Shown one piece after another: positions 20,543-35,547 of a stretch of DNA of 64,000 nt. The stretch lies in assembly GCF_006716885.1 (NCBI RefSeq), contig NZ_VFPU01000001.1, positions 1,612,001 through 1,676,000 on the forward strand, read 5' to 3'. A program made the position numbers and the translations under genes. The DNA is from Ornithinimicrobium humiphilum (lineage in GTDB: Bacteria > Actinomycetota > Actinomycetes > Actinomycetales > Dermatophilaceae). Under the pieces are notes generated by a model, which had not been told where the DNA came from, did no database searches, and saw nothing but the letters and a program-made list of their open reading frames with translations. Position 1 is the stretch's first letter, and every line of letters begins with the position of its first letter.

Positions 20543-20614
20543 GGGCGATTGGCGCAGTGGTAGCGCGCTTCCTTGACACGGAAGAGGTCACTGGTTCAAA
20601 CCCAGTATCGCCCA
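20543..20614 (+). tRNA. tRNA-Val (GAC), integration target
   Basis: Acceptor stem GGGCGAT/ATCGCCC and anticodon loop TTGACAC give anticodon GAC. The 3' CCA is encoded at 20615-20617. The 3' half, from the anticodon stem to CCA, is repeated at 35497-35547, showing that a mobile element integrated here while restoring the intact tRNA. Confidence 0.95.
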
Positions 20615-20617
20615 CCA
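20567..20617 (+). repeat. attL core (51-bp direct repeat, copy 1)
   Basis: Begins GCTTCCTTGACACGG and ends ATCGCCCACCA. It is identical to 35497-35547 and forms the 3' part of the functional tRNA-Val. Confidence 0.92.
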
Positions 20618-20621
20618 CACA

Positions 20622-20668
20622 GAAACCCCCTCCGACCTGCGGAAACGCGGAGTCGGAGGGGGTTTTCT
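20622..20668 (+). terminator. terminator after tRNA-Val, supplied by the element
   Basis: Arms AACCCCCTCCGAC and GTCGGAGGGGGTT around CTGCGGAAACGCGGA, followed by a TTTT run. The loop GCGGAAACGCGG also occurs in the terminator beyond attR, although the stem sequences differ. Confidence 0.85.
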
Positions 20669-20688
20669 CGTTGGTGCCGACGGGCATT

Positions 20689-20806
20689 TGTCTACATTTG
20701 TCTACGCTTCTGGAGGCCCCTCTGTAGACACGGCGGGCGCCTGAAGGCCCTCCAGGCGCGGCCAACGAGCTCGTGTCTACGGTGCCGGGGCGCGAAAGCG
20801 TAGACA
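20689..20806. repeat. left arm-type heptamer cluster TGTCTAC/GTAGACA
   Basis: Five copies: 20689-20695, 20699-20705 and 20774-20780 as TGTCTAC; 20724-20730 and 20800-20806 as GTAGACA. The same heptamer recurs four times near attR. The arrangement fits arm-binding sites of a tyrosine recombinase, or sites for its accessory protein. Confidence 0.65.
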
Positions 20807-20851
20807 CGCCTCCCGGGCGTTGACCCTGAACGCGACCTGGTCGTGGCGCGC

Positions 20852-21052
20852 CTACGGCCCGACGACGGACTGCGGGTCGAGGTCGTCGCGGACCCGCAGG
20901 AAGCGCACCTGGTGCCTGAAGGCGAACCCCTGCCGGGCGGTGTCGGCCGCCACCTCCACCACGACCGGGACCACCCGGGTGAGGACCACCGGGGCCTTGT
21001 CCGGGGTGTAGCGGTCGAACCACGACGGCGGTACCTGGGTCGGCCACGGGTG
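20852..21052 (-). pseudogene. remnant of an ATP-dependent DNA ligase C-terminus
   Basis: 66 codons open on the minus strand with no plausible start and a stop codon immediately upstream. The peptide begins HPWPTQVPPSWFDR and continues VVVEVAADTARQGFAFRHQV then RFLRVRDDLDPQSV. That pattern matches the end of the OB-fold domain of actinobacterial ATP-dependent DNA ligases, where V-EV-AD-A-----RH--RF-R-R-DL-P is conserved. It is a fragment, so not functional. The remainder of 20807-21239 shows no other supported gene. Confidence 0.5.
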
Positions 21053-21239
21053 CTACGGGCCGGACGAGTTCCCGCCTGACTACTGCGACATGTGCGAGGG
21101 CGACCACGAGGACGAGTACTGACCGGCTCCGCCATACCCGGACAGGCATGGGAATCGTCCAGACAGCAGCGTCCGGGCACTGAAGCACTGCCCGGATGTT
21201 GGATGAAAGTAAGGCCTTGCGCCCCTTGGTTGCCCCCAC

Positions 21240-21245
21240 TACTGT
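21240..21245 (+). promoter_or_regulatory. -10 box for a leaderless gene
   Basis: TACTGT, six bases before the ATG at 21252, fits the TANNNT spacing of leaderless actinobacterial transcripts. No ribosome site is present. Confidence 0.45.
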
Positions 21246-21251
21246 CTGCTC

Positions 21252-21845
21252 ATGGGGAAACTAAAATCGCAATTTCGTCGAGCAGCCCTCGGAGTCATCA
21301 TCTGCGGATTCGCCGGCGCCAGCAGCTTGACTGGGGTGGCGAGTGCAACAAACTGGGGCTCCACAGGAACACCATCAACGGCCGGCAACGACAGTCAAGT
21401 CTCTCTGCTTCCAGACCGGAACATGAACATCAAACGCGTGGCCTTGACCACAAACTACAACGGCGCTGTGCTCAACAGGGCGAACAACGTCTACGATCCT
21501 ACCGACCTGGTGGTAACTGTCAGTTCCGCCGCGACGTGCGGCTCGGGCAAGCAGATCTGCGTCTTCGATCAGGACTATGGCAACAATAATCTGTACGGGT
21601 GGGTGGCCTGTCGAGCCGGCTCGTCCGGTGCGAATCCCAACCGCACCTGCGAACACCAGTGGGTGCGGTTCAATCTTGCGTACACCCCGCCGAGCTATCA
21701 GCGGCTCGCTTGCCATGAGCTGGCCCACACCGTCGGCCTCCGACACGGCACGGAGACGGCCTCTTGTGTGTTTCCAAACATAGCGCAGGCCACAACCAGT
21801 GCACTCACAACGCACGACAGAGCCCACATCAACGCGAGGTACTGA
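21252..21845 (+). CDS. secreted metzincin-type metalloprotease
   Basis: 197 residues. An N-terminal signal peptide (basic RRAALG, hydrophobic VIICGFAGASSL, cleavage near VASA) directs it outside. Near the C-terminus ACHELAHTVGLRHG gives the HExxHxxGLxH zinc site of metzincins, as in matrixin-like proteases. Cysteine spacing suggests disulfides. Codon use is AT-richer than in chromosomal neighbours (AACAACGTC and AATAATCTG occur), suggesting separate acquisition. It is followed after one base by a lipoprotein gene. Substrate unknown. Confidence 0.75.
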   Translation: MGKLKSQFRRAALGVIICGFAGASSLTGVASATNWGSTGTPSTAGNDSQVSLLPDRNMNIKRVALTTNYNGAVLNRANNVYDPTDLVVTVSSAATCGSGKQICVFDQDYGNNNLYGWVACRAGSSGANPNRTCEHQWVRFNLAYTPPSYQRLACHELAHTVGLRHGTETASCVFPNIAQATTSALTTHDRAHINARY

Positions 21846-21846
21846 G

Positions 21847-22446
21847 ATGGTGCGAAAGTTCATGCGGGGAGCAGCGCTTCTCGCGGTGACATCTTTGACG
21901 TCGGCATGTGTAGTGGCTGACTCCGGAGCAGACGAATCCTCGACCAATCCCCAGTCAGCAGTCTATGACTGGGGTTGGGCCGTGATCGAGGGATCAGAAG
22001 TGTTCATCGACGATTCGCTGACGGGCATGGCCGCCGAGGCGGACGTTGTGGCGGTCGGGAGGTTTGTCGCCCAGTGTGACGACCGACAGATGGGCGGGGG
22101 GAGCGAAGGCGATCTGGTTACCTACAAGTGTCTTACCTTCGAGCCCTCTGAGGTCATCTCAGGGGTAGTAACGGAACCGCTACCGGTGGAGTTCTTGGGT
22201 TCACCAACCGATGGGACCGTGCCCCCAGACGAAGTAGCCGTCTTCCTGTTGGATAAGGGAGGTTCCGAGTCAGGTCGTTACCGTGTGGTGAACTCCTTCG
22301 GCCTTTTCACGAGCACGCAACGTGCGCAGGTGGACCAGCCTATGCGCGCAAGTGCAGACCAGGCAGTGTCGGGCCTGGACGACCTTCCGCGCGACGACTG
22401 GGATCAGTTCAAGCGGCACCTCAGACGGGAGGTCGGAGCGAGGTAG
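21847..22446 (+). CDS. lipoprotein of unknown function
   Basis: 199 residues. A signal peptide with lipobox LTSAC at about residues 17-21 implies anchoring to the outer face of the membrane. The mature part is acidic, with AEADVVAVGRFVAQC and a strand-rich middle (KCLTFEPSEVISGVV). I do not recognise the family. One base separates the stop of the metalloprotease gene from this start (TGAGATG), so the two are coupled. The minus-strand lipoprotein at 22590-23126 has a comparable layout (FDGTVVRVG, then EWFLGG), and the two may be distant relatives. Confidence 0.6.
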   Translation: MVRKFMRGAALLAVTSLTSACVVADSGADESSTNPQSAVYDWGWAVIEGSEVFIDDSLTGMAAEADVVAVGRFVAQCDDRQMGGGSEGDLVTYKCLTFEPSEVISGVVTEPLPVEFLGSPTDGTVPPDEVAVFLLDKGGSESGRYRVVNSFGLFTSTQRAQVDQPMRASADQAVSGLDDLPRDDWDQFKRHLRREVGAR

Positions 22447-22589: not shown

Positions 22590-23126
22590 CTAGGGGTGTG
22601 TGCTCCTACGCCACGAAGCGGCTGTGTCTTCGTCGTAGAGCCGACTGAAGCCACATCCCCACGCGACCGGCTGGTCCAAGGGCCCGCCACCCCACCGAGG
22701 CTCACCGCTCAACAACAGGCGCGATCCTTCACGGATGAGTAGGTCTCCCTCCCCGGTCTCCCCGAGACCTTGCATGTCGACCGTGATCTCCTCGGAGGCT
22801 CCGCCCAGAAACCACTCATTGACCGCGAACGTCACTCCCGGCATCCCCAGGTCTCCGGCGTCGCCCCTGTCAGAGACCGATGGTCCGACGCGGACCACCG
22901 TCCCGTCGAAAGCAAACGCGCGGCTCCGAAGCGCATCGGGCGAGTAGAACTCAACGCACGCCCCTGAACCACCACCTGCCAAGTCTTCCTGCGTACCAGG
23001 CGAGGTATCGCTGCTCGGGGCCTTGACCGCGCCATCGCTCTGCAGCGCGTCTCCGTTGTCCACTACGCCACAGGCCGCAAGCACGAACGTGAGACCAACA
23101 AGACGCCAGCTCCTGGACATCTGCAT
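22590..23126 (-). CDS. lipoprotein of unknown function
   Basis: 178 residues from the ATG at 23126, with AGGAG six bases upstream. The lipobox is VLAACG. The mature part includes AFAFDGTVVRVGPSV and TFAVNEWFLGG, resembling the small secreted beta-rich proteins that actinobacterial genomes carry in islands. Function is unknown. Composition is AT-richer than in surrounding genes, like the other exported genes of this element. Confidence 0.6.
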   Translation of the reverse strand: MQMSRSWRLVGLTFVLAACGVVDNGDALQSDGAVKAPSSDTSPGTQEDLAGGGSGACVEFYSPDALRSRAFAFDGTVVRVGPSVSDRGDAGDLGMPGVTFAVNEWFLGGASEEITVDMQGLGETGEGDLLIREGSRLLLSGEPRWGGGPLDQPVAWGCGFSRLYDEDTAASWRRSTHP

Positions 23127-23221: not shown

Positions 23222-23461
23222 TCAGTCGATGCGCTGCCAGGTGCCGTTGCGCACCCGCTGCCAGACCTCGGCCCGGGCACCGGGCAGTGACCACAGGGAG
23301 TTGCTGACGGCGCTGCGGGCCTGGCCGAGCCCGTTGTGCAGCTTCCACTCGGGCGTCCGGCCGGGGACACGGCTGGCGAAGGAGGGGATGACGAACGCCG
23401 GCGGGGGCGTGCCGGCCGGCTCGGGATCCGCCGCGATGCGCGGATCCTTCCTACGAGCCAT
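23222..23461 (-). CDS. small hypothetical protein with CCACAC-box start
   Basis: 79 residues, proline-rich N-terminus (PEPAGTPPPAFV) and basic, Trp-containing C-terminus (GTWQRID). No known domain. It overlaps the 3' end of the kinase gene by 11 bases. It has no Shine-Dalgarno sequence; CCACAC lies nine bases before the ATG, as for other cargo genes. Confidence 0.5.
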   Translation of the reverse strand: MARRKDPRIAADPEPAGTPPPAFVIPSFASRVPGRTPEWKLHNGLGQARSAVSNSLWSLPGARAEVWQRVRNGTWQRID

Positions 23462-24080
23462 GGCTGGCCGGTGTGGCGGGCATGACGAGGTCGGCCCGGT
23501 CGCGGGTGGCCTCGACGGTGCGCCCGTTGGGAAGGTCGACGGCGTGCACCCAGGCCCGGGATGCGTCGGGGCGGTGCCCGTCGGCGATGCGGCGCAGGGT
23601 GAGGCGCTCGGCGTGCACGTCCTGGGGCACGTCGAGGAACCACGTCTCGTCGATCAGGGCCCGCACGTCCCGCCATCCGTCGTCCTCGAGCAGCAGGTAG
23701 TTGCCCTCGACGACGACCAGGGTGGCCGCGGCGTCGACCTGGACGGCGCCGGCGACCGCGACCTCGCGGGACCGGTCGAGCCTGGGGGCGTAGACGGTGT
23801 GCGTGGCAGTGCGGATCCGGGTGAGCGTGGCGACCAGCCCGTCGACGTCGAAGGTGTCGGGTGCTCCCTTGCGGTGGAGCCGGCCCAGGCGCGCGAGGAC
23901 GGGGTCGTCGAGGTGGAAGCCGTCCATCGGGACGACGACGCAGCGGGCGCCGAGCCGGTCCTGCAGGAGGGCGGCCAGCGTGGACTTCCCGGCTCCGGGC
24001 GCACCGGCGATCCCGAGGAGGGTGCGGCCGGGGGTCTCGGCCAGGGTGGCGGCCCGGGTGAGCAGCTCGGCTGTGTCCAT
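23451..24080 (-). CDS. uridine-kinase-like nucleoside/nucleotide kinase
   Basis: 209 residues from the ATG at 24080; an ATG at 24092 is also possible. GIAGAPGAGKSTLAALL is the P-loop, VVPMDGFHLDD is the conserved acidic substrate loop of the phosphoribulokinase/uridine kinase family, and VVVEGNYLLL is the Walker B-like strand. Actinobacterial relatives include FrcK-like sugar kinases and uridine kinases, so the substrate is open. It lies just downstream of tRNA-Arg(CCT) on the same strand. Confidence 0.8.
   Translation of the reverse strand: MDTAELLTRAATLAETPGRTLLGIAGAPGAGKSTLAALLQDRLGARCVVVPMDGFHLDDPVLARLGRLHRKGAPDTFDVDGLVATLTRIRTATHTVYAPRLDRSREVAVAGAVQVDAAATLVVVEGNYLLLEDDGWRDVRALIDETWFLDVPQDVHAERLTLRRIADGHRPDASRAWVHAVDLPNGRTVEATRDRADLVMPATPASHGS
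23471..23476 (-). promoter_or_regulatory. CCACAC start-associated box (gene at 23461)
   Basis: Minus-strand CCACAC with exactly nine bases to the ATG and no ribosome-binding site between. Confidence 0.5.
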
Positions 24081-24116
24081 GATCCCCAACATGCCCGAAC
24101 CGGCAGGGTGCACTGG

Positions 24117-24189
24117 TGTCCCCGGCAGGACTCGAACCTGCGACGCCCGACGTAGGAGGTCGGCGCTCTTTCCGCTGAGCTACGGGGAC
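24117..24189 (-). tRNA. tRNA-Arg (CCT)
   Basis: Acceptor GTCCCCG/CGGGGAC and anticodon loop CTCCTAC give anticodon CCT for AGG. The 3' CCA is encoded (24114-24116). All arms pair well. Confidence 0.93.
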
Positions 24190-24259: not shown

Positions 24260-24542
24260 ATGGTCCTGAGCAGTTCTCCCCGCCCTGGTCTGCCTGACCG
24301 TGCTGACCGCGTGCGAGGAGGAGGAGCCGGTCCACGTCCCGACCTCCGAGGAGCTCTACAAGATGCACCTCAACTCGGCCTTCGACAAGTTGTCGGAGTA
24401 CCGGCTCGAGAAGTACTGCGAGAACTTCCAAGAGGGACGTGAGGAGCAGATCGCTGCCCTGCGCGAAGAAATGGGCCCCGAGAACGGGGACCGGGTCAGG
24501 TGGACCGTGGAGGTCTGGGACGAGCGGTGCGCCGACCAGTGA
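24260..24542 (+). pseudogene. small lipoprotein with a frameshift in the signal peptide
   Basis: The ATG at 24260 has a strong AGGAGGGG ribosome site but its frame diverges after about four codons. The adjacent frame encodes a lipoprotein signal (LPALVCLTVLTAC) and then an acidic 70-residue protein with NSAFDKLSEYRLEKYCENF. A one-base change near 24272 would join them. Translation could also start at the GTG at 24300, but that would lose the signal peptide. Function unknown. The stop abuts the 3' end of tRNA-Thr on the opposite strand. Confidence 0.55.
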
Positions 24543-24615
24543 GCCCCTGGCCGGTCTCGAACCGGCGACCTGACGCTTACAAGGCGTCCGCTCTGACCGT
24601 CTGAGCTACAGGGGC
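24542..24615 (-). tRNA. tRNA-Thr (TGT)
   Basis: Acceptor GCCCCTG/CAGGGGC and anticodon loop CTTGTAA give anticodon TGT for ACA. The D-arm GCTCAGACGGTCAGAGC and T-arm are regular. CCA is not encoded. Its first ten bases overlap the end of the minus-strand gene at 24606. Confidence 0.93.
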
Positions 24616-24989
24616 ACGCCCGCCGGGTCCGGCGCCGGGGGAGTCCAGGCCGGGCCGGGCGGGGTCTTGGGGGTGAGGGGCCGGCCGGTGATGTCGCGCG
24701 CCATGCCCGAGGGCATCCGGCCGAAGACGGCACGGTCGGTCTGGCGCATGTAGAGCGTGCCGCCGGAGAAGTCGATGGGGGAGCGGGTGAGGTACTCGCG
24801 GCCCTGGCGGTCCAGGAGGATGCGCTCCTCGACGGTCTCGTACCCGTTGTCGACGGTCTGACGACGGCCGGTGTCGACGAGGCGCTTGACCTGGACGTAG
24901 GTGATGCGGTGCTCGGCGCCGAAGTGGCAGGACTCGGTGATCTCGCCGACGCGGCGGGCGACGGCGACGGGGACGGTCTTGGTGGTCAT
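24606..24989 (-). CDS. hypothetical protein, CCACAC-box gene
   Basis: 127 residues with no recognised domain. It begins MTTKTVPVAVARRVGEITES and contains HRITYVQVKRLVDTG, then a proline-rich tail. No ribosome-binding site; CCACAC lies nine bases before the ATG. Its stop codon is inside the 5' end of tRNA-Thr, so this mRNA and the tRNA may share a transcript that is processed by RNase P. It lies directly downstream of rtcB on the same strand. Confidence 0.6.
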   Translation of the reverse strand: MTTKTVPVAVARRVGEITESCHFGAEHRITYVQVKRLVDTGRRQTVDNGYETVEERILLDRQGREYLTRSPIDFSGGTLYMRQTDRAVFGRMPSGMARDITGRPLTPKTPPGPAWTPPAPDPAGVPL

Positions 24990-24998
24990 GCCGACCGG

Positions 24999-25004
24999 GT
25001 GTGG
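24999..25004 (-). promoter_or_regulatory. CCACAC start-associated box (gene at 24989)
   Basis: Nine bases before the ATG. It immediately follows a 28-nt perfect palindrome. Confidence 0.5.
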
Positions 25005-25005
25005 C

Positions 25006-25033
25006 GGGGCCGGAGGTGCGCACCTCCGGCCCC
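25006..25033. terminator. perfect 28-nt palindrome after rtcB
   Basis: GGGGCCGGAGGTGC and its exact complement, seven bases beyond the rtcB stop. There is no T tract, so termination may be weak. It could also be an operator next to the CCACAC box. Confidence 0.5.
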
Positions 25034-25040: not shown

Positions 25041-26237
25041 TCAGCCCTTCACGCACAGGCGCGTGTCGAGCTTCTCCACGACCTCGACCAGGTCGGCCTG
25101 GGCGGCCATCACCTCGTCCAGGTCCTTGTACGCGGCCGGGAGCTCTTCGACGACCCCGGAGTCCTTGCGGCACTCGATGCCGGCGGTCTGCGCGGCCAGG
25201 TCGTCGGCGGTGAACTGCCGCTTCGCCTTCGACCGCGACATGCGCCGGCCGGCCCCGTGCGAGGCCGACCAGTACGACTCCGGGTTGCCCAGGCCGCGGA
25301 CGATGTAGGCGCCCGTGCCCATGGAGCCGGGGATCATGCCCAGGTCGCCGTTGCCGGCCCGGATCGCGCCCTTGCGGGTCACGAGCAGGTCCACCCCGTC
25401 GACCGTCTCGGTCGCCACGTAGTTGTGGTGCACGTTGATGGCCGGCTCGAAGGTGACCGCCTTGCCACGAGCCTCGAAGTGTCCGGCGACGGTGCGCTGC
25501 ACCAGCTGGAGCATGATGGCCCGGTTCCGGGCTGCGTACTCCTGCGCCCAGTCCAGGTCGCGCCGGTAGGCCACCATCTCCGGGGTGCCGGCGAGGAACA
25601 CCGCCAGGTCGCTGTCGGGCAGGCCGGCGTTGTGCGCGAGCTTCTTGGCGACGGCGATGTGACGCTCGGCGATCTCCTTGCCGATGTTCCTCGAGCCGGA
25701 GTGCAGCGTCAGCCACACCTGCCCGTCCTGGCCGGTGCACAGCTCGATGAAGTGGTTCCCGCCACCGAGGGTGCCCGCCTGGGCCCGGGCCTTGCCCTCC
25801 CGGTCCTGCACGCCGGGGTGCAGGTAGGAGAACCGGGACCAGAAGCCGGAGTCGTCGCCGAGGCCGAGACGGCGGGTGTCGACCTGGCCGTCGTGGGCGT
25901 GGAATCCGACCGGGACTGCGCCCTCGATCGCCAGCCGCAACGACCGCAGGTCGTCCGGCAGGTCGTCGGCGGTCAGCGAGGTGCGCACGGCGGCGACACC
26001 GCAGCCGATGTCGACACCGACGGCCGAGGGGGAGACGGCGTCGCGCATGGCGATGACGGACCCGACGGTCGCGCCCTTGCCGGCGTGGGCGTCGGGCATG
26101 ACCCGCACACCCTCCACCCACGGCAGCTCGGCGACGTTGCGCAGCTGCGTGATCGCGGAGTAGTCGGTGTCGTGCTCGTGCAGCCACATCTTCACCGGTG
26201 CGGTCGTGCCGAGCAGGGTGATCGGGAACTGTCCCAT
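25041..26237 (-). CDS. rtcB: RNA-splicing ligase RtcB
   Basis: 398 residues. It joins RNA 3'-phosphate or 2',3'-cyclic phosphate ends to 5'-OH ends using GTP and Mn, the end chemistry left by many anticodon nucleases. Motifs in order: MPDAHAGKGATVGS, GVDIGCGVAAVRT (metal ligands), GTLGGGNHFIE, LHSGSRN, NVHHNYV, VTRKGAI, IPGSMGTGAYI, and SHGAGRRMSRSKA with the His that is guanylylated. All key residues appear intact. It has a true ribosome site (AAGGAAGG). The gene sits inside a tRNA-carrying mobile element, suggesting repair of damaged tRNA. There is no archease gene nearby. Confidence 0.95.
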   Translation of the reverse strand: MGQFPITLLGTTAPVKMWLHEHDTDYSAITQLRNVAELPWVEGVRVMPDAHAGKGATVGSVIAMRDAVSPSAVGVDIGCGVAAVRTSLTADDLPDDLRSLRLAIEGAVPVGFHAHDGQVDTRRLGLGDDSGFWSRFSYLHPGVQDREGKARAQAGTLGGGNHFIELCTGQDGQVWLTLHSGSRNIGKEIAERHIAVAKKLAHNAGLPDSDLAVFLAGTPEMVAYRRDLDWAQEYAARNRAIMLQLVQRTVAGHFEARGKAVTFEPAINVHHNYVATETVDGVDLLVTRKGAIRAGNGDLGMIPGSMGTGAYIVRGLGNPESYWSASHGAGRRMSRSKAKRQFTADDLAAQTAGIECRKDSGVVEELPAAYKDLDEVMAAQADLVEVVEKLDTRLCVKG

Positions 26238-26275: not shown

Positions 26276-26289
26276 CGCCGGCGGCAACC

Positions 26290-26295
26290 GCACAG
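26290..26295 (+). promoter_or_regulatory. GCACAG start-associated box (gene at 26306)
   Basis: CCGCACAGT with ten bases from GCACAG to the ATG and no ribosome site. The same variant box precedes the other two RGRF-motif genes. Confidence 0.5.
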
Positions 26296-26305
26296 TAGGT
26301 CCTGC

Positions 26306-27310
26306 ATGAGCGCGACGACCCAGCAGTTCGACGAGACGAAGCACCCCCGCGGTGAGGGCGGCCGGTTCACGACCAAGCCCTGCAGCGAGGCCGACGTGGA
26401 CCTCGCCGGACCCGCCGCCCCCGGCGAGCACCTGTTCGGGGAGGCCAGCGTCCGTGCCGACCGCTGGGGCCAGGTCGTGACCGTCCAGGGCCCGACGCTC
26501 TTCCTCGGCGCGGCCATCCCGGAGGAGCACGCCCAGGACCCGGAGTACCTGGACCGCCGCTGGCACCGCATCGAGGCGTTCGTCGCCGAGGAGTACGACG
26601 CGAAGGTCTCCCGCACCCCCGGCGACGACGGCCCCGTCATGGACGTCCAGCTCTCCTGGGAGATGTCGTTCGAGGACGCCAAGGCCGAGGACGCCGAGAA
26701 GCTCATCGCCCAGGCACGCCAGCGCCTGCTCGACCCCGCCTCCCAGCTGCCGGAGCACCTTCGCGACCACGTGCAGCCTCGCTCCGGCGTGCAGGAGCTC
26801 CAAGACGCGCTGGAGGAGGAGGACTTCGACGGCCGCACCCGCTTCAGCAGCGAGCTGGACCAGTACCTGACCCGCACCGACGCCGAGGCGCAGACGCCGC
26901 GCGGCATCACGCTCGACCCCGACGAGGCCGGTCTCACCTACCCGGCCGACGTCGACCAGGAGTCTTTGGACCGGGCCGTGGCCTCGGCCCGCGACTACCT
27001 CGAGATCCTGCACACGGTCAGGCGGCCCGAGGCCCGCGACGGTCTCTTCATCGCCGTCGAGCCCACCGGCCGCCTGGCGATGTTCGCCCCGACCGCGTGG
27101 CGGCAGCCGACCGAGCAGCCGCTCCTGCCGTGGCGCGCACCGAACGCCATGCCGGTCGCGAAGGTCGACATGGACGGCCACGCCAGCCTCCTCACCGTCG
27201 AGGAGACACCCTGCAAGGACTGCGGGGAGCCGCTGGAGGACAAGGCCAGCCCGAACATGCGCCGGGTCTGCATGGCGTGCACGGGGGAGTGGGACGACGA
27301 GGCCCCCTGA
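26306..27310 (+). CDS. RGRF-motif protein with C-terminal zinc ribbon
   Basis: 334 residues from the ATG at 26306. The N-terminus FDETKHPRGEGGRFTTKP followed by EADVDLA matches the N-termini of the proteins at 30826 and 30323 (HRDPRGRFGTQPATEADIDL). A central acidic helical region follows (LQDALEEEDFDGRTRF). The C-terminus carries CKDCGEPL and RRVCMAC, a probable zinc ribbon. No family assigned. It is divergent from rtcB with 68 bases between starts, so the two may be co-regulated. Confidence 0.65.
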   Translation: MSATTQQFDETKHPRGEGGRFTTKPCSEADVDLAGPAAPGEHLFGEASVRADRWGQVVTVQGPTLFLGAAIPEEHAQDPEYLDRRWHRIEAFVAEEYDAKVSRTPGDDGPVMDVQLSWEMSFEDAKAEDAEKLIAQARQRLLDPASQLPEHLRDHVQPRSGVQELQDALEEEDFDGRTRFSSELDQYLTRTDAEAQTPRGITLDPDEAGLTYPADVDQESLDRAVASARDYLEILHTVRRPEARDGLFIAVEPTGRLAMFAPTAWRQPTEQPLLPWRAPNAMPVAKVDMDGHASLLTVEETPCKDCGEPLEDKASPNMRRVCMACTGEWDDEAP

Positions 27311-29597: not shown

Positions 29598-30323
29598 TCA
29601 GAACGGCGGCGGGTCGTACTGCTGGTCGCCGGCCGGGGCCCGGTGGATGCCCCACGGGTCGGGGTCCGGGGTCGGGCCGGCGTGGATGTCGTCCTGGAAG
29701 ACGGGCCAGGCGCTGCCGCCGTGGCCGTCGTCGTCGAGGCTGGCGGCCTCCTCGGACACCTTCGACATCATCAGGGCGACGTCGTCGGTGCCGTAGCAGA
29801 TGGTGGTGCGGGTGTCCTCGGACTGGCCGTCGCGGTCCATCGACCAGGAGACCCGCTCGGCGGTGTACCAGGTCTGCCCGGAATGCCCCTCGTCGGCGAA
29901 CACCTCGATGGCCAGGCCGTGGAACCCGTTGGCCGGCTGGATGGTGACGTGGTCGTCGTGGACGGTGACGGCGTCGCCGGAGAAGCCGACACCGACGAGC
30001 AGGTCGCGGGTGCTGCCGAGCCGGCTGTCGGGGTCGACCTGGGTGCCGGCGAACCGCTCCCGATCGACGGTGGCGGTGTCGTAGTCCCGGAGCGCGGCGG
30101 CGAGCTGGTCGATCTGGTCGGGGCTCCAGTCGTCGGCGGTGCCGAGGTCCCGGGCGATGCGGTTCAGGGTGTCCTGCAGCTCGCGCATGGCGGTGGTGTC
30201 GTCGATGGGCGGCTCGCCCAGGGTGACCGCGGTCGCCTCGGTCGCGGGCTGGACACCGAAGCGGCCGTCGGGGGCGCGGTGCGCCTCGCGGGAGGCCTGT
30301 GCGACATCGCTGATCTGGGTCAT
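29598..30323 (-). CDS. RGRF-motif protein of unknown function
   Basis: 241 residues. N-terminus SREAHRAPDGRFGVQPATEA is shared with the protein encoded just upstream. Then a helical segment (MRELQDTLNRIARDLG) and a C-terminal domain with TWYTAERVSWSMDRDG and TTICYGTDDVALMMSKV. The tail is Pro/Asp-rich. Its ATG overlaps the stop of the upstream gene (ATGA). No family recognised. Confidence 0.6.
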   Translation of the reverse strand: MTQISDVAQASREAHRAPDGRFGVQPATEATAVTLGEPPIDDTTAMRELQDTLNRIARDLGTADDWSPDQIDQLAAALRDYDTATVDRERFAGTQVDPDSRLGSTRDLLVGVGFSGDAVTVHDDHVTIQPANGFHGLAIEVFADEGHSGQTWYTAERVSWSMDRDGQSEDTRTTICYGTDDVALMMSKVSEEAASLDDDGHGGSAWPVFQDDIHAGPTPDPDPWGIHRAPAGDQQYDPPPF

Positions 30324-30826
30324 GCCGGTTGCACTGTGCGGGGGCCGAGGACGCGCGCCGAGGGGGCCCGGGCCTCCAGGAGGTCGAAGGAGCGGCCCTG
30401 GTCGGCCAGGCAGGTCCGCCAGGGGGTGACGTCGCCGACTGGTTCGACCTCCAGGACGACGGCCTGGTCGGGGTCGAGCCCCTGGGCCTGGGCGGCCTGG
30501 CGGGCCCAGAAGTTGGCGACGGCGGGGTCGGAGGTGAGGGAGACGGCGTCGTGCGCGGACTGGGCGTGGTTGGCGGGGGAGGCGCCGGGGCGCAGCTCCT
30601 CGCCGGGCGTCAGGGGGCGGGCCGTGCCGTGGTAGAGCCGGCCGCCGGGGACGTCGCCGAGGGTGAAGGACCGGCCCATGACGACGACGCGAACGTGCCG
30701 CCAGTCGGTCTGGTCGTCCTGGGCGAGGTCGATGTCCGCCTCGGTCGCCGGTTGGGTCCCGAACCTTCCCCGCGGGTCACGGTGGGCCTCGCGGGCGGCG
30801 CGGGCTGCGGCGTTCACGTCGGTCAC
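30320..30826 (-). CDS. RGRF-motif protein with an Arr-like ADP-ribosyltransferase domain
   Basis: 168 residues from the GTG at 30826, chosen by analogy with the paralogous N-terminus of the next gene; GTG 30838 is possible. After REAHRDPRGRFGTQPATEAD the domain reads GRLYHGTARPLTPGEELRPG, then AVSLTSDPAVANFWARQAA, then VVLEVEPVGDVTPW. This follows the order seen in rifampin ADP-ribosyltransferase (Arr): YHGT with the NAD-contact His, a T-x-D/E-x-A-x-x-W block, then V-VEP-G. Family assignment is by eye. Target is unknown; it could modify a small molecule, protein or RNA. Confidence 0.55.
   Translation of the reverse strand: MTDVNAAARAAREAHRDPRGRFGTQPATEADIDLAQDDQTDWRHVRVVVMGRSFTLGDVPGGRLYHGTARPLTPGEELRPGASPANHAQSAHDAVSLTSDPAVANFWARQAAQAQGLDPDQAVVLEVEPVGDVTPWRTCLADQGRSFDLLEARAPSARVLGPRTVQPA
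30334..30339 (-). promoter_or_regulatory. GCACAG start-associated box (gene at 30323)
   Basis: CCGCACAGT, ten bases before the ATG, lying inside the 3' end of the upstream coding region. Confidence 0.4.
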
Positions 30827-30843: not shown

Positions 30844-30845
30844 GG

Positions 30846-30919
30846 CGCCCCCGGCAGGGATCGAACCTGCGACCGGCGGGGTAGAAGCCCGCTGCGCTCT
30901 CCAGCTGCGCCACGGGGGC
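30846..30919 (-). tRNA. tRNA-Arg (TCT), array member 8
   Basis: Acceptor GCCCCCG/CGGGGGC and loop CTTCTAC give TCT for AGA. Last in transcription order of the eight-gene array. CCA not encoded. Confidence 0.92.
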
Positions 30920-30922
30920 TGG

Positions 30923-30996
30923 TCGCGCCGGCTGGGCTCGAACCAGCGACCCCACGCCTTATGAGGGCGGTGCTCTTCCGCCTGAGCTACGGCGCG
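30923..30996 (-). tRNA. tRNA with CAT anticodon (Met elongator or Ile2), array member 7
   Basis: Acceptor CGCGCCG/CGGCGCG and loop CTCATAA. Position 1-72 is a C-G pair and the three G-C anticodon-stem pairs of initiators are absent, so it is not tRNA-fMet. It could be elongator Met or lysidine-modified Ile. One C-U mismatch at 27-43. 3' CCA is encoded at 30920-30922. Confidence 0.88.
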
Positions 30997-30997
30997 G

Positions 30998-31071
30998 TGA
31001 TCCCGGCTGGATTTGAACCAGCGACCTCCTCCTTATCAGGGAGGCGCTCTGACCTGCTGAGCTACGGGATC
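30998..31071 (-). tRNA. tRNA-Ile (GAT), array member 6
   Basis: Acceptor GATCCCG/CGGGATC and loop CTGATAA give GAT. Only one base separates it from the next tRNA, so 3' ends must be trimmed and CCA added. Confidence 0.92.
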
Positions 31072-31073
31072 GG

Positions 31074-31147
31074 GGTGAACGACGGGGCTCGAACCCGCGA
31101 CCTCCTGGATCACAACCAGGCGCTCTGCCGACTGAGCTACGTCCACC
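31074..31147 (-). tRNA. tRNA-His (GTG), array member 5
   Basis: Loop TTGTGAT gives GTG. Base 31147 supplies the G at position -1 and the discriminator is C, both hallmarks of tRNA-His. The acceptor has one G-T wobble. Confidence 0.92.
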
Positions 31148-31177
31148 ATGTCGGCGACGCTGCGTGCGTCACCTCGG

Positions 31178-31261
31178 TACCCCGGGCCGGAGTCGAACCG
31201 GCACGCCCGTGCGGGCACACGGGTCTGAGCCGTGCGCGTCTGCCAGTTCCGCCACCGGGGC
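31178..31261 (-). tRNA. tRNA-Leu (CAG), array member 4
   Basis: 84-nt class II tRNA with long variable arm (TGCCCGCACGGGCG). Loop CTCAGAC gives CAG. The 1-72 pair is G-T. Confidence 0.9.
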
Positions 31262-31266
31262 CTGCG

Positions 31267-31339
31267 TGATCGCGGCAGGGCTCGAACCTGCGGCCTCCTC
31301 GGTGTGAACGAGGCGCTCTGCCGACTGAGCTACGCGATC
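31267..31339 (-). tRNA. tRNA-Val (CAC), array member 3
   Basis: Acceptor GATCGCG/CGCGATC and loop TTCACAC give CAC. Confidence 0.93.
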
Positions 31340-31345
31340 AGGGAG

Positions 31346-31418
31346 TGGGTCCGGCAGGGCTCGAACCTGCGACCACCTGCGCGTCGAGCAGGCGCTCTGC
31401 CATCTGAGCTACGGATCC
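31346..31418 (-). tRNA. aberrant Val-like tRNA (GAC with C33), array member 2
   Basis: Cloverleaf arms pair, but the anticodon loop is TCGACGC. Positions 34-36 read GAC, yet position 33 is C instead of the near-universal U and position 37 is G. The acceptor GGATCCG/CGGACCC has an A-C mismatch at 3-70. The T-arm is normal. It may be a decayed Val(GAC) copy, a decoy, or a specialised RNA. Confidence 0.75.
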
Positions 31419-31423
31419 ACGGG

Positions 31424-31496
31424 CTCCTCCAGCAGGGCTCGAACCTGCGACACCTCGGTTAACAGCCGAGTGCTCTGCCGACTGAGCTATGGAGGA
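31424..31496 (-). tRNA. tRNA-Asn (GTT), array member 1
   Basis: Acceptor TCCTCCA/TGGAGGA and loop CTGTTAA give GTT. Discriminator G as expected for Asn. First tRNA of the array in transcription order. Confidence 0.93.
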
Positions 31497-31528
31497 ATGG
31501 GTGCCGGATCGGCTCCGGCGGGCCTTCG

Positions 31529-31658: not shown

Positions 31659-31940
31659 ATGACCGAGAGGACGCCGTCAAGGGGTGCGCCGGCCAGGCCG
31701 CACACCCCGCTGACCCGTTCCATCGCGCTACAGGTGAAGCTGGTCCGGATCGAGCCCGGAATGACGCAGGCGGATATGGCCGCCGCGGCGGGCCTGCACG
31801 TCAACACCCTGTCGAACATCGAGAAGTGCCACCGGTCCCCGACGATCGCCCAGGTCGAGGCCATCGCCGGCGTTGCCGGGATGTCCTTCTCGAAGCTCGC
31901 GCGCCGCGCCGAGGAACGGCTCAAGGACATCGGGGACTGA
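31659..31940 (+). CDS. XRE-family transcriptional regulator
   Basis: 93 residues. The HTH is MTQADMAAAAGLHVNTLSNI followed by EKCHRSPTIAQVEAIA, with C-terminal MSFSKLARRAEERL. A small Cro/C1-type repressor candidate. It is divergent from the tRNA array, in a good position to control it. Probably transcribed leaderless. Confidence 0.8.
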   Translation: MTERTPSRGAPARPHTPLTRSIALQVKLVRIEPGMTQADMAAAAGLHVNTLSNIEKCHRSPTIAQVEAIAGVAGMSFSKLARRAEERLKDIGD

Positions 31941-31949: not shown

Positions 31950-32823
31950 TCACCCCTCCTGGCCGAACAGGTCCTCCTCGTCACGCGCCGGGGCGTGCTC
32001 CTCGCAGAACCACTCCTCGCCGCGCTGGGAGTAGAAGCAGCCGACCCCGCACACCGAGCACGGATGGCCGACCTCCCGGACGTCGAACGCCCCCGACCGC
32101 GACATGCCCCAGTCGGTGCAGAAGCCGAGGCCGTTGCGGTAGCCGCGGGTCTCGAACGTCGAGTGACCGGTGGGGCAGGACCGGATGGCCTCCAGCTGCG
32201 CCCAGGCGGCGTCCTCGGCCTCGGGCACCGTCGCGCCCTCGCCGCGGATGAACGTGCGCGGCTCGGCGACGAACGCCTCGCACGAACGTGGTGCGGTAGG
32301 TCGGGCGGTCCGGGTCGCGCGTGATCACCAGACCGTTCCCGCCGCCCTGCACCTTCGCGTCGTCCGGCCACGGGTGCCGGGCCTGGACGTCGGTGTTCTC
32401 GATGACCCGGGCGACGCCGTGCTCCCGCATCCACCGGCGCCGCTCCCGGGCGAACCCGTCGGCGGTCTCGGCGTCCCACTCGACCAGCAGGTCGCCCAGG
32501 CGCACCACGGCACGGAACGGGCCGGTCCTGTCGGCCCCGGGCAGGCCCGGGGCCGACAGGACGATCAGGTGGTGCAGCTCGTCGACGTGCCGCGCATCGG
32601 ACCCGACGCCCCCGAGAACCACCTGCACGAGCACCTCGACGGGTTGCTCGGCCAGACCGGGGGCCGCTGCCAACCACTCCGGGTCGGTCAGGTCGGTCAG
32701 CGGTGTGGAGACGATCCACCCGCCGGCCCACCAGGTGCGGGGTGCGTCCGGGTGCGCCGGGCGCGGGGGAGTGCGGCCCTGGACGTCTTCGATGGCGTCG
32801 GCCGGGACGACGTAGTGGGTCAT
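31950..32823 (-). pseudogene. hypothetical Cys-rich protein split by a frameshift
   Basis: ATG at 32823 opens MTHYVVPADAIEDVQGRTPP and stays convincing until YRTTFV near 32285. The sensible sequence then continues in another frame as EAFVAEPRTFIRGEGATVPE down to the stop at 31950. That C-terminal part has FCTDWG, CSVCGVGC and FCEEH, likely a zinc-binding module. One missing base near 32280 explains the break. Intact length would be about 290 residues. No family recognised. CCACAC lies nine bases before the ATG. Confidence 0.6.
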
Positions 32824-32832: not shown

Positions 32833-32838
32833 GTGTGG
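32833..32838 (-). promoter_or_regulatory. CCACAC start-associated box (gene at 32823)
   Basis: GCGCCACACC with exactly nine bases to the ATG. Confidence 0.5.
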
Positions 32839-33136: not shown

Positions 33137-33454
33137 ATGTCTGAGGCACCAACTCCCACCATCCCCGCCGCACCTCCTGGCGCCGCCCAACTCCCTGTCC
33201 ACTTCGGGGTCGAAGAGCTCGCCGAATACCTCGGCTGCTCGAAGTGGTACATCTACAAGCTCACCTCGAAGGGCCGCATCTCGTACTTCAAGGCCGCGGG
33301 CCGGGTCCGGTTCACCCACGACCAGGTCGCCACGTACCTGGCCTCCATCGGCGCGCCGGTGCCCATCCCCGGCTCGGGGCTGCCCGGTGGAAACGGCAGG
33401 AAGGGGCGCGTCGGTCGCCCCGCTCGCAGCCTGGCCGAACTCGGCATCGAATGA
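33137..33454 (+). CDS. xis: excisionase / helix-turn-helix directionality factor
   Basis: 105 residues. A MerR-like HTH_17 domain: HFGVEELAEYLGCSKWYIYK followed by KGRISYFKAAGRVRF and THDQVATYL. Such proteins bend att DNA and steer the recombinase toward excision. It lies directly upstream of the integrase, 11 bases from its start. The C-terminal tail is basic. Confidence 0.85.
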   Translation: MSEAPTPTIPAAPPGAAQLPVHFGVEELAEYLGCSKWYIYKLTSKGRISYFKAAGRVRFTHDQVATYLASIGAPVPIPGSGLPGGNGRKGRVGRPARSLAELGIE

Positions 33455-33465: not shown

Positions 33466-34635
33466 ATGGCGAGCACCCGCAGGACGGTGGCGCCATACAT
33501 CAAGGAGACCACCAACAAGGACGGCGTCAGCTACCTCGTCTACATCCCCCGCATGGAGAACGGGAAGCCGGAGTCGGTGACCGTCTACGACGTGCACACC
33601 GCGTACGCGGTCAGGGACAAGCTGCTCAAGAAGCGCGAGCAGCTCCACGCCGCCGAGCGCGCCCTGAAGAAGAAGGTCAAGAAGAACCCTGACGCCCTCA
33701 CCCTCGAGGAGTGGATGACGAAGTGGCTCACGGTCATCAGGGGCTCCGTCACCGAGGAGACGTACAAGTGCTACGAGTCCCTCAGCCGTAACCACATCGT
33801 CCCCAACGTCGGGCACATGGCGCTCGTCGAGATCACCATGTTCGACGTCCGGGCACTGCGGAACGACCTGGACAAGAAGAAGGCGCGCGAGACCGTCGAC
33901 AAGATCCTCGGCCGCGTCCTCGCCCAGGCGCTCGACCAGGCGGTGGCCGACCGCATCATCCCGGGCAACCCGGCCAGGGGCCTGCCGTCCCGCCCCCGGC
34001 GGCGCGCCCACCGCGACCAGGGGCAGGGCAAGAGCCTCCTGGTCGAGCAGGTCGGACGGTTCCTCGACTGCATGGACCCGTGGTGGCGGCTCATGTGCCA
34101 GGTCCAGGTGGACACCGGCCTGCGCATCGGTGAGCTCGGAGCGCTCCAGGTCCGACACCTGGACCTCGGACGCGCGTCGGTGACGGTCGAGCAGTCTCTG
34201 ACGAAGGCCGGGACGATCGGCCCGCCGAAGACGTCGGCGGGCTACCGGACCGTGCCCATGCTGCAGCCCGCCACGGTCGCCTCCCTGCGGCAGCACATCA
34301 AGGGCCGGGGGCTCACGAGCAGCGACTTCGTGTTCACGGGACCCCGCGGTGGGCGCCTCAACATGGACACCTTCCGCCGTCGTAAGTTCGCGCCGGCCGT
34401 CGAGGCGGCCGGGCTCGGGGACCTCCGGTTCGAGGGACACAGGGTCAGCCCGCACTGGCTCCGTCACAGCGCGATTACCTCGTGGGCGATGGCCTCCGGC
34501 CTCACCGACATGCAGATCGCTGCGATGGCGGGCCACGAGGACAGCCGACTGACCCAGGCTGTCTACACCCACCTGCGCACGGCCGACCTCGGTCACGCGC
34601 GGGACAACATGGCGGGCTTCTGGGCTGCCGCCTGA
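33466..34635 (+). CDS. int: tyrosine recombinase (integrase)
   Basis: 389 residues from the ATG at 33466, with GAGGA upstream; an ATG at 33451 overlaps the xis stop but lacks a ribosome site. An arm-binding N-terminus is followed by a SAM-like core-binding domain (LTLEEWMTKWL). Catalytic residues: Arg in DTGLRIGELGAL, Lys in PPKTSAGYR, HxxR in PHWLRHSAIT, His in AGHEDSRLTQ, and nucleophile Tyr in AVYTHLR. All appear intact, so the element may still be mobile. It ends in a strong hairpin. Confidence 0.95.
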   Translation: MASTRRTVAPYIKETTNKDGVSYLVYIPRMENGKPESVTVYDVHTAYAVRDKLLKKREQLHAAERALKKKVKKNPDALTLEEWMTKWLTVIRGSVTEETYKCYESLSRNHIVPNVGHMALVEITMFDVRALRNDLDKKKARETVDKILGRVLAQALDQAVADRIIPGNPARGLPSRPRRRAHRDQGQGKSLLVEQVGRFLDCMDPWWRLMCQVQVDTGLRIGELGALQVRHLDLGRASVTVEQSLTKAGTIGPPKTSAGYRTVPMLQPATVASLRQHIKGRGLTSSDFVFTGPRGGRLNMDTFRRRKFAPAVEAAGLGDLRFEGHRVSPHWLRHSAITSWAMASGLTDMQIAAMAGHEDSRLTQAVYTHLRTADLGHARDNMAGFWAAA

Positions 34636-34648
34636 CCCGTTCCACGAA

Positions 34649-34680
34649 GAGGGGCACGACGCGCGCGCGTCGTGCCCCTC
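34649..34680. terminator. bidirectional terminator after the integrase
   Basis: GAGGGGCACGACGCG pairs with CGCGTCGTGCCCCTC, between convergent genes. Confidence 0.75.
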
Positions 34681-34698
34681 TCGCGTTGCCCGCCCGGG

Positions 34699-35163
34699 CT
34701 AGCTGGCCAGCTTGCGGTGGCGGTCGATGGCCTCGTCCCAGGCGTCCAGTTCGGCGACCGAGAAGTGGTGCCGGTTCTGCTCGCTCACGATGTAGCCGAG
34801 CTCGCGCACCGCGGCGCCCACCTCGGGCATCCCGGCCCGGGCGCTGGCACGTTCCACCTCGGCGAGGAACTTGTCAGGGTCCAGCGGGGCCGGCTCGTCC
34901 TGGTCGGGGTCGAACAGGAGCGGGTCGTCCGGGCCGGGCGGCCGACCGAACCGCTCCTCGAAGAGGACGATCTGGTGACGACCAGCCTCGGCCAGCTCGT
35001 CGGTCATCGTCACGGTCGCCGACCCGTCGGCGTGCCTCGTCAGGGCAGAGAAGCGTGGGTCGCCCTCCCTGTCTGCCCGGAGCTGGAGGTGCTCCTCGAT
35101 CAGCCTTTCGCGTTCGGCTGCTTCGGCCTCGCGTTGGCGACGGATGCGCTGTGCCTTTCCCAT
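34699..35163 (-). CDS. hypothetical protein, element right end
   Basis: 154 residues from the ATG at 35163, with GAGGAG upstream. A basic coiled-coil-like N-terminus (KAQRIRRQREAEAAERERL) is followed by an acidic domain (FDPDQDEPAPLDPDKFLAEV) and YIVSEQNRHHFSVAELDAWD. No family recognised. A CCACAC box lies 51 bases upstream. It is the last gene before the attR arm. Confidence 0.6.
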   Translation of the reverse strand: MGKAQRIRRQREAEAAERERLIEEHLQLRADREGDPRFSALTRHADGSATVTMTDELAEAGRHQIVLFEERFGRPPGPDDPLLFDPDQDEPAPLDPDKFLAEVERASARAGMPEVGAAVRELGYIVSEQNRHHFSVAELDAWDEAIDRHRKLAS

Positions 35164-35214
35164 CTGGTCTCCTCTGTCGTAGCGAGGCCGTGGTCGGCCG
35201 CGACTACCTGTCGG

Positions 35215-35220
35215 GTGTGG
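35215..35220 (-). promoter_or_regulatory. CCACAC box upstream of gene at 35163
   Basis: 51 bases before the ATG, with a ribosome site in the leader. Confidence 0.4.
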
Positions 35221-35340
35221 CGCATTCTGCCGCGACCTACCGACCCAGCGGGCCGAAGTAGAGCTGAAGCGAGGGGTCCAGCGAGAGCAAAACGGCCGGA
35301 AAACCGTCAACCTTCGGATGCCTTCGGCGGCCCGATCTCA

Positions 35341-35436
35341 TGTCTACGGATCCGGCGTAGACAAAGTCCCACACGTCGAAAAAAGGGCAAAAGAGGGCAA
35401 AAAGGGAGAGATGTCTACAAACCCTAGGTGTAGACA
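35341..35436. repeat. right arm-type heptamer cluster
   Basis: Two inverted pairs: TGTCTAC 35341-35347 with GTAGACA 35357-35363, and TGTCTAC 35412-35418 with GTAGACA 35430-35436. Between them are three AGGGCAAAA-type direct repeats (35382-35405). Confidence 0.65.
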
Positions 35437-35496
35437 CAGCGAGGGGGTGGTCTGGTATCGTCGCAGGTCAGAGCATGTTCTCGTCGTTTGGCGCAG

Positions 35497-35547
35497 GCTT
35501 CCTTGACACGGAAGAGGTCACTGGTTCAAACCCAGTATCGCCCACCA
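35497..35547 (+). repeat. attR core (51-bp direct repeat, copy 2)
   Basis: Identical to 20567-20617. Further left, TTGGCGCAG of the tRNA D-arm is also present, but nine bases (TGGTAGCGC) are missing between it and the core. It lacks an acceptor 5' half, so it is not a functional tRNA. Confidence 0.92.

Follow-up and report, generated by a model that had tools for sequence, protein, structure and literature searches.

A 15-kb element with ten tRNA genes and rtcB in a tRNA-Val gene of Ornithinimicrobium humiphilum, probably a small relative of giant tRNA-array elements of the Micrococcales

We analysed a 64,000-nt stretch of the Ornithinimicrobium humiphilum genome (contig NZ_VFPU01000001.1, positions 1,612,001 to 1,676,000; this whole stretch is called the window here), in which a segment of about 15 kb carrying ten tRNA genes and the RNA ligase gene rtcB is inserted into a tRNA-Val gene. 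In our judgement this segment is probably a small member of a lineage of giant tRNA-array elements in the Micrococcales, i.e. a satellite or a cut-down relative that would not be autonomous. That it belongs to a giant integrative or plasmid lineage with tRNA arrays at all is very likely from the sequences compared.

The ends of the element are given by a 51-bp direct repeat, the identical copies of which lie 14,930 bp apart and represent its attachment (att) repeats. The left copy is the 3' part of an intact tRNA-Val(GAC) gene, the integration target. Such a repeat, restoring the 3' end of the tRNA, and the genes int and xis located between the two copies characterize the segment as a tRNA-integrated element with a tyrosine integrase. 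The features concerned are:

20543..20617, plus strand: tRNA-Val(GAC), integration target, intact copy (ARAGORN, Rfam)
20567..20617, plus strand: att repeat, left copy, 51 bp (repeat comparison)
35497..35547, plus strand: att repeat, right copy, 51 bp, identical (repeat comparison)
20690..20810: left cluster of GTAGACA/TGTCTAC repeats (read from the sequence)
35340..35445: right cluster of GTAGACA/TGTCTAC repeats (read from the sequence)
33137..33454, plus strand: xis, excisionase (HTH_17, E 2e-9; NCBIfam 'excise' over the cut-off)
33466..34635, plus strand: tyrosine integrase (Pfam Phage_integrase, E 1.1e-18)

In the relative G127 the tRNA-Val gene runs straight into a sequence resembling the right flank of the window (88.5% over 61 bp), as is expected of an unoccupied site and of a segment that has been inserted. 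The sequence TGTAGACA occurs five times in the element, both strands counted, and not once in the window flanks; the left GTAGACA/TGTCTAC cluster likely consists of integrase or Xis arm sites, and such a role is presumed for the right one as well. Part of the open reading frames (ORFs) of the element were scanned with Pfam, and none of them was recognised as a relaxase, type IV secretion system (T4SS) or FtsK-type transfer gene. Hence, the element does not qualify as an integrative and conjugative element (ICE), and its transfer would depend on a helper. Terminase, portal, capsid and packaging genes were not found either in these ORFs or by PHROGs among ten proteins, which speaks against a prophage or a phage satellite, and no virion or replication family was seen. 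PHROGs returned RtcB, the integrase, regulators and weak kinase or unknown matches and nothing else, and a search of ten proteins for defence families gave only weak helix-turn-helix and kinase matches. The sequence-only reading, which had described a precisely bounded element in tRNA-Val with intact xis and int and without recognisable virion or replication genes, is borne out in these points. Nevertheless, the element or its assembly is imperfect, since the minus-strand gene at 31950-32823 is broken across two reading frames and a lipoprotein-like ORF at 24300-24542 has no in-frame start for its signal peptide.

A 303-kb integrated element of Ornithinimicrobium murale DSM 22056 occupies the same tRNA-Val within the same Gly-Cys-Val tRNA locus. 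It is delimited by exact 44-bp att repeats starting at positions 83589 and 387068 of contig C18 (span C18:83589-387111). Its integrase is 43% identical to that of the window over 313 amino acids and its excisionase 46% over 52; further common genes code for a protein of the KHPRG type (43% over 329 amino acids), an Arr-like protein (59% over 155) and the gene which is split in the window (37% over 75 and 49% over 79). The common att site, the related int and xis, these additional genes and the start-locked signals described below place both elements in one lineage. The positions of xis and int differ, being next to the intact tRNA in O. murale and at the opposite end in the window. The O. murale element holds 32 tRNAs in four places. 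No rtcB was found in it, neither in a survey of RtcB in the family nor by reading the element itself, and tRNAs thus travel with this lineage with or without rtcB. A search for tRNA-Val-integrated relatives with a conserved set of int, rtcB and tRNAs had been proposed from the sequence; the relative detected has int and tRNAs and lacks rtcB. Related elements carrying the tRNAs without rtcB or the cargo, in unrelated contexts, had been named as a sign of chance grouping, and half of this, tRNAs without rtcB in a related element, is what O. murale presents.

Its transfer genes comprise a TrwC relaxase, a T4SS coupling protein and an ATPase with an AAA_10 domain, which we read as VirB4-type; some of these genes are perhaps parts of nested elements. 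Possible nested elements of this kind are two similar stretches (141-156 kb and 187-202 kb) with conjugation-type ORFs, each ending in a recombinase that overlaps tRNA genes. A DnaE-like gene is present, too. The AAA_10 ATPase has matches in 19 of 72,556 plasmid records, the top eight of which are Micrococcales plasmids of 375-608 kb, including all six plasmids that reappear in the RtcB tree below. Furthermore, 19 of 285 predicted genes of the O. murale element match 297 kb of plasmid pieces, among them counterparts of genes annotated as DnaE, helicase, ATP-binding protein and thymidylate synthase. Integrases 37-39% identical are sited in tRNA-Val(CAC) of three congeners; in the 40 kb read around each, they are accompanied by no more than an xis-like match, to which G111 adds a weak Arr-like one (E 8e-4).

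Both Ornithinimicrobium elements carry two short sequences at a fixed distance from start codons, called signal I and signal II in the following. Their positions in the window, found by pattern match, are:

24986..25006 (minus), 28504-28524 (plus), 32820-32840 (minus): signal I, CGCCACACC-N7-CATGA
23478, 26277, 29589, 35222 (minus); 32993, 33004, 33119 (plus): bare signal I 9-mer, CGCCACACC
26288..26305 (plus), also 30341 and 30845 (minus): signal II, CCGCACAGT, start codon 18 nt on

The 9-mer of signal I is found at 10 sites in the window element and at 71 in that of O. murale, signal II at three and 32, and neither occurs in the flanks of the window (about 49 kb) or of C18 (96 kb). As register we took the distance from the start of the motif to the first start codon that opens a frame of 40 or more amino acids. 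Signal I stands exactly 17 nt from a start codon at 44 of its 71 O. murale sites and at four of ten in the window, where that of xis stands at 18; the remaining O. murale sites scatter from 9 to 54 nt, and six of the 71 have no start within 60 nt. For signal II the register is exactly 18 nt at 21 of 32 O. murale sites, and 18, 18 and 19 nt at the three sites of the window. In 994 kb of other loci signal I was found in register once and signal II not at all, and 100 dinucleotide shuffles of the window yielded no CGCCACACC-N7-CATGA against three observed. The 8-mer GCCACACC is observed 12 times in the window element, where a first-order model gives a mean of 1.3 (largest 6 of 100), and 86 times in the O. 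murale element, where the mean is 28 (largest 38 of 20). Because this 8-mer is not rare by composition in the latter, the fixed spacing is a stronger point than the motif counts. In IMG/VR, signal I was found in 112 stretches, 80 of which were listed, and signal II in 19, each of those listed with a single match.

Upstream of signal I, no column as far as -60 exceeds 0.4 bit (45 sites). At rtcB (40 nt), at the regulator gene 29239-29532 (57 nt before the ATG) and at the gene for a 154-amino-acid protein (59 nt) signal I lies far from the start, which is preceded by a purine-rich ribosome site. These arrangements fit a promoter with transcription starting at a fixed distance, which would give a leaderless mRNA when that point coincides with the ATG; a translation signal would be the alternative reading. 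Genes with these signals include rtcB, the 127-amino-acid gene downstream of it, xis and genes for proteins with an N-terminal tag, and the low-GC cargo at the left end is free of them. We are inclined to believe, from their placement, that the start-locked signals define a regulon.

The N-terminal tag occurs in two flavours (e.g. AREAHRDPSGKFGTQPATES and YDETKHPRGPGGKWATKPASES) on 18 of the 21 in-register signal II genes of O. murale and on all three in the window, and at least two tagged O. murale genes have no signal II. It sits on otherwise dissimilar proteins, those of the window genes 26306, 29598 and 30320 and of at least 18 genes on C18. The KHPRG-type protein of one element bears another flavour than its relative in the other, so that the tag behaves like a module that can be exchanged. 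A related tag was also seen on a protein of another genus, with no signal II nearby. Tentatively, the two elements might use a private expression and sorting code: -10-like leaderless promoters would be read by an element-specific or alternative transcription factor, class I serving general genes, including rtcB, and class II tagged products bound for one destination, so that the small element would be a satellite living on the code of its 303-kb relative with tRNAs and RtcB of its own.

The element's rtcB (25041..26237, minus strand) codes for the sole RtcB of the host assembly. Its product matches PF01139 from end to end (E 5.1e-119, model positions 1-426 of 426) and is thereby a member of the RtcB RNA ligases with predicted activity; the motifs DIGCG, GGGNHF, LHSGSR, HHN and SHGAG, which we take to hold the catalytic residues, can be aligned to the corresponding ones of P. 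horikoshii RtcB (1uc2). The gene is intact, as had been read from the sequence. RtcB is present in 75 of 186 genomes of the family, the own one included. In 21 others, 22 loci code for an RtcB 59-67% identical to that of the window, the remainder being mostly 44-50% identical. A module of rtcB and tRNAs across the family was considered, given tRNA-Met, Arg, Thr or Asn genes near some loci, and rejected: most of ten neighbourhoods inspected in the 59-67% group look chromosomal.

In a tree of 47 RtcB rows, 34 of them from family genomes, the window RtcB forms a clade with those of six giant plasmids and two phages (Cen1621 and Big4) with a support of 98/93, apart from the 34 family rows; the tool gave a warning on long phage branches. 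Three further phages and one IMG/VR row fall outside this clade. The affiliation with plasmid and phage RtcBs rests on the tree and not on similarity alone, since by plain identity the nearest RtcB is that of a family genome, G151. The six plasmids of the clade have 375-607 kb and belong to Arthrobacter (two), Pseudarthrobacter (one) and Curtobacterium (three). Five of them, all except that of A. caoxuetaonis, were scanned in part for tRNAs, and all five have some. The three Curtobacterium plasmids hold 7, 13 and 12 tRNAs in 31 kb around rtcB. On pACHL01, a single tRNA lies in 25 kb around rtcB, and the first 30 kb of the record contain 11. On zg-Y1110, both the 41 kb around rtcB and the 50 kb adjoining them on one side are free of tRNAs, and the 50 kb on the opposite side contain 15, one of which is of undetermined type. 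Thus, in the parts scanned, all but one of the tRNAs of pACHL01 (12) and zg-Y1110 (15) are tens of kb away from rtcB. Phage Big4 has 43 tRNAs in 31 kb around rtcB, which lies inside the array, Cen1621 has one, and Weasels2, outside the clade, has 10 near rtcB. RtcB is frequent in phages (645 of 50,697 records). Plasmids, phages and the integrated element are mobile genomes on which sets of tRNAs repeatedly occur with RtcB.

That RtcB supplements tRNAs in jumbo phages is already in print, though it is less common there than ATP-type ligases (PMC7824862). The novelty that the sequence-only reading saw in the specific grouping is smaller to that extent. Among open-licence papers, judged by title or the start of the abstract, we found no description of the window element, the O. 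murale element or the rtcB/tRNA content of Micrococcales plasmids. The giant Micrococcales plasmids with rtcB and tRNA arrays, some with an ATP-type RNA ligase, Thg1, DnaE, NrdEF, SecY or thymidylate synthase, look like one little-described replicon group.

ARAGORN predicts 13 tRNAs in the window, three chromosomal ones on the plus strand and ten inside the element, all on the minus strand as noticed before, and all 13 reach the Rfam tRNA gathering score. Those of the element (each by ARAGORN and Rfam) are:

24114..24189, minus strand: tRNA-Arg(CCT)
24541..24615, minus strand: tRNA-Thr(TGT)
30844..30919, minus strand: tRNA-Arg(TCT)
30920..30996, minus strand: tRNA-Met(CAT)
30996..31071, minus strand: tRNA-Ile(GAT)
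31072..31146, minus strand: tRNA-His(GTG)
31176..31261, minus strand: tRNA-Leu(CAG)
31266..31339, minus strand: tRNA-Val(CAC)
31345..31418, minus strand: tRNA-Val(GAC), with C at position 33, where U is usual in tRNAs
31421..31497, minus strand: tRNA-Asn(GTT)

A tRNA array unit is a dense cluster of at least 20 tRNA genes; with eight in 654 nt and two more, the set of the window element is dense yet small and falls short of this number. Evasion of nucleases through altered anticodon loops was considered and rejected, as changes in the loops are not in excess: when nine element tRNAs are compared with their host isoacceptors, 8 of the 36 loop positions outside the anticodon are different, as against 17-37% over the whole genes. 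Nine of the ten anticodons duplicate those of the host. The tenth is that of tRNA-Thr(TGT), of which the 44 other tRNAs in the host assembly include no second copy. A native tRNA-Thr(TGT) of one of two types is intact in 29 of 30 congeners and in G131 is cut by the contig end. The host contig C2 starts at the counterpart of position 41037 of contig C11 in G122, about 23 kb past the native gene of G122 (C11:18287). Judged by this synteny, the native tRNA-Thr(TGT) of the host most likely lies in an assembly gap. Because the native locus of the relatives falls just before the contig start, no dependence of the host on the element through this tRNA can be claimed, and addiction was rejected as a candidate. 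Also, ACA, a rare Thr codon, shows no clear enrichment in the element, where it makes up 5 of 2565 codons, as against 20 of 13087 in the chromosomal parts of the window. In G122 and G120 the native tRNA-Thr(TGT) is followed by what, from its translation, is a phage-type integrase-like gene, pointing to another likely tRNA integration site in the genus.

A putative ADP-ribosyltransferase had been named as a further partner of the tRNAs and RtcB. The protein in question (30320..30826, minus strand, 168 amino acids, tagged, GTG start 19 nt from signal II) matches Arr-ms (PF12120) with E 4.5e-4 and 20.8 bits, below the curated cut-off of 25, and its O. murale homologue reaches 20.3 bits; an AlphaFold model built from two sequences has a predicted local distance difference test (pLDDT) score of 50.6, too poor for a fold comparison. 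The identity of the gene as Arr-like is therefore weak. Matches exist in four of 186 family genomes, the own included; only that of O. murale is full-length, one in G155 is 40% identical over 76 amino acids and one matches by the tag alone. No match was found in IMG/VR or plasmids, and a further protein search is not exhaustive, for it gave a single entry (99%) without the homologue of O. murale. In O. murale about 116 kb separate the gene from the closest tRNA genes, and 199 kb separate it from the main array. For this reason tRNAs, RtcB and Arr are not a conserved module and the Arr-like gene is not a fixed partner; of the proposed grouping, the recurrence of tRNAs with RtcB on mobile genomes stands. 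A gene of phage Big4 (14287-14751), annotated as ADP-ribosyltransferase beside rtcB inside the tRNA array, is a macro domain by Pfam, so that the annotation looks wrong; it shows no similarity to the Arr-like protein of the window and, being a macro domain, was rejected as a match for the threefold grouping.

The remaining genes of the element are as follows:

21252..21845, plus strand: matrixin-like metalloprotease, low-GC cargo (PF00413, E 1.4e-5; GC 0.606 at 21-22 kb)
21847..22446, plus strand: lipoprotein-like cargo (translation)
22590..23126, minus strand: lipoprotein-like cargo (translation)
23222..23461, minus strand: 79-amino-acid protein with start-locked signal I (translation, signal)
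23451..24080, minus strand: nucleoside/nucleotide kinase family protein (NCBIfam NF006743 over the cut-off, E 2.3e-74)
24300..24542, plus strand: lipoprotein-like ORF, start region out of frame (translation)
24606..24989, minus strand: 127-amino-acid protein between rtcB and tRNA-Thr, signal I at 17 nt (no Pfam or PHROG family)
26306..27310, plus strand: tagged protein, KHPRG type, of a rare family (homologue near the main tRNA array of the O. murale element)
27484..28248, plus strand: secreted-type cargo protein (translation)
28521..29216, plus strand: 231-amino-acid protein, signal I at 17 nt (signal)
29239..29532, minus strand: XRE-type regulator 1, signal I at 29589 (HTH_31, E 5.7e-10)
29598..30323, minus strand: tagged protein, REAHR type, signal II (translation, signal)
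31659..31940, plus strand: XRE-type regulator 2 (HTH_3, E 1.3e-9)
31950..32823, minus strand: gene split between two frames, signal I (both pieces match one predicted O. murale element gene)
34699..35163, minus strand: 154-amino-acid protein, signal I upstream (translation, signal)

The KHPRG-type family has three members, the window protein included, among 5.8 billion proteins, the other two (59% and 44%) being on metagenome contigs of 3.9 and 1.4 kb. Among 84,980 genomes only O. murale has it, besides the own genome one of 396 genomes of the order gives a weak match (E 2.7e-4), and IMG/VR and phages give none. The 231-amino-acid gene has three weak partial matches besides its own in the 186 family genomes and none in plasmids. 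The chromosomal part of the window holds four cobalamin riboswitches (36295-36487, 41645-41819, 52193-52382 and 60284-60433).

Several known systems share single traits with the element. In Acidithiobacillus, a tRNA-array ICE and a segment (about 300 and 325 kb) likewise hold a tRNA array in a large integrated mobile segment of a size near that of the O. murale relative, but they are from another phylum, rtcB is absent from the main text of the paper, and the window element is 20 times smaller with its 10 tRNAs (PMC5468388). Giant linear plasmids of Mycobacterium avium are actinobacterial, exceed 300 kb and have a tRNA array unit and a VirB4 gene, with an antidefence role suggested there; in contrast, they are linear, not integrated, with a T7/T4 hybrid secretion system, and neither RtcB nor a ligase appears in the main text (PMC12803027). 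The circular plasmids of Arthrobacter, Pseudarthrobacter and Curtobacterium (375-607 kb) have RtcBs 61-64% identical and in the clade of the window, and the AAA_10 ATPase in common with the O. murale element, but they are not integrated in tRNA-Val and neither signal is in register in the nine pieces searched (297 kb). Actinophages Weasels2 and Big4 and jumbo phages combine tRNAs and an RtcB-type ligase on one mobile genome (PMC7824862) and differ by their virion genes. The Start Associated Sequences of cluster K mycobacteriophages and cluster EF Microbacterium phages are also conserved short sequences right before many start codons of one mobile genome, with a ribosome-site-like consensus (GGGATAGGAGCCC; GGGAAAGGACCCC) (PMC3203893, PMC7302621). 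Compared with this published consensus, the Ornithinimicrobium signals CGCCACACC and CCGCACAGT are not purine-rich, keep fixed distances of 17 and 18 nt and form two classes, one of which is tied to a protein tag.

Some findings weigh against a small member of a giant tRNA-array lineage. Just two such elements are known here, that of the window and that of O. murale, and the latter lacks rtcB. The split gene and the lower-GC cargo are equally compatible with decay, and no relaxase, T4SS or phage structural gene that would give a route of spread was found among the ORFs scanned. The phage rows of the RtcB tree are on long branches, the RtcB of G151 (67%) is nearer by identity than those of the plasmids (61-65%), and two of the eight plasmids with the AAA_10 ATPase are absent among the 40 RtcB records listed out of 172. 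Part of these facts also feed other explanations. A decaying island, in which int, xis and the signals would be left over from an element that was formerly larger, with the tRNAs and rtcB as passengers without a present role, would account for the broken reading frame, the misplaced lipoprotein start, the signal-free low-GC cargo at the left end and the lack of transfer genes among the ORFs scanned; we regard it as rather unlikely, for int, xis, rtcB and all ten tRNAs look intact and signal I is in register at five starts (four at 17 nt, xis at 18 nt). A chance capture of a chromosomal rtcB by the element would agree with the 22 similar loci in 21 family genomes, G151 foremost, and their mostly chromosomal neighbourhoods, but the tree sets the window RtcB apart from all 34 family rows and signal I stands upstream of the gene, which makes such a capture highly improbable.

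Two further alternatives concern what the tRNAs are for. By analogy to Anabaena, where the 26-tRNA trn operon of a megaplasmid and a chromosomal rtcB are co-repressed by TrcR and released under translational stress (PMC10272220), the array may provide an extra dose of tRNAs for translation under stress or for codon supply and not for RNA repair. We think this unlikely, as nine of the anticodons are duplicates, the host copy of the tenth is probably hidden in an assembly gap, and ACA codons are not clearly enriched. Alternatively, arrays may be landing sites drawing other integrative elements away from the tRNA genes of the host, with a secondary role in translation. In the O. murale element Pfam identifies a serine recombinase in the first of two similar recombinase ORFs; both overlap tRNA genes (156026-156362 and 201627-201702) and lie next to two stretches of similar conjugation-type ORFs. 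However, no insertion is seen in the window's own array, and we consider landing sites very improbable.

For a small, probably non-autonomous member of the giant lineage, the following course of events can be envisaged. When activated, int and xis would excise the element, which a helper element would transfer. Genes such as rtcB, the 127-amino-acid gene and those of the tagged proteins would form a single regulon driven by the signals. RtcB and the additional tRNAs would sustain translation when host nucleases or stress deplete or cut tRNAs, with RtcB resealing 2',3'-cyclic-phosphate and 5'-OH ends and the element tRNAs replacing those lost. RtcB seals ends left by metal-independent RNases (PMC7824862), and for the tRNA sets of mobile elements a role against tRNA-cutting defences is suspected (PMC12803027). 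The anticodon loops of the element tRNAs, no more altered than the rest of the genes, speak against the repair reading. By analogy, repair of nuclease-cut tRNAs by RtcB is plausible; that replacement together with repair is the selected function, we put forward with reserve, as one possibility.

Summarizing, a 15-kb island is tied here to little-described actinobacterial elements of 0.3-0.6 Mb with tRNA arrays. The two exact signals allow members of this lineage to be recognised and their gene control to be studied. As the large relative resides in O. murale DSM 22056, a strain available from a culture collection, it becomes possible to test why sets of tRNAs are carried by mobile elements.

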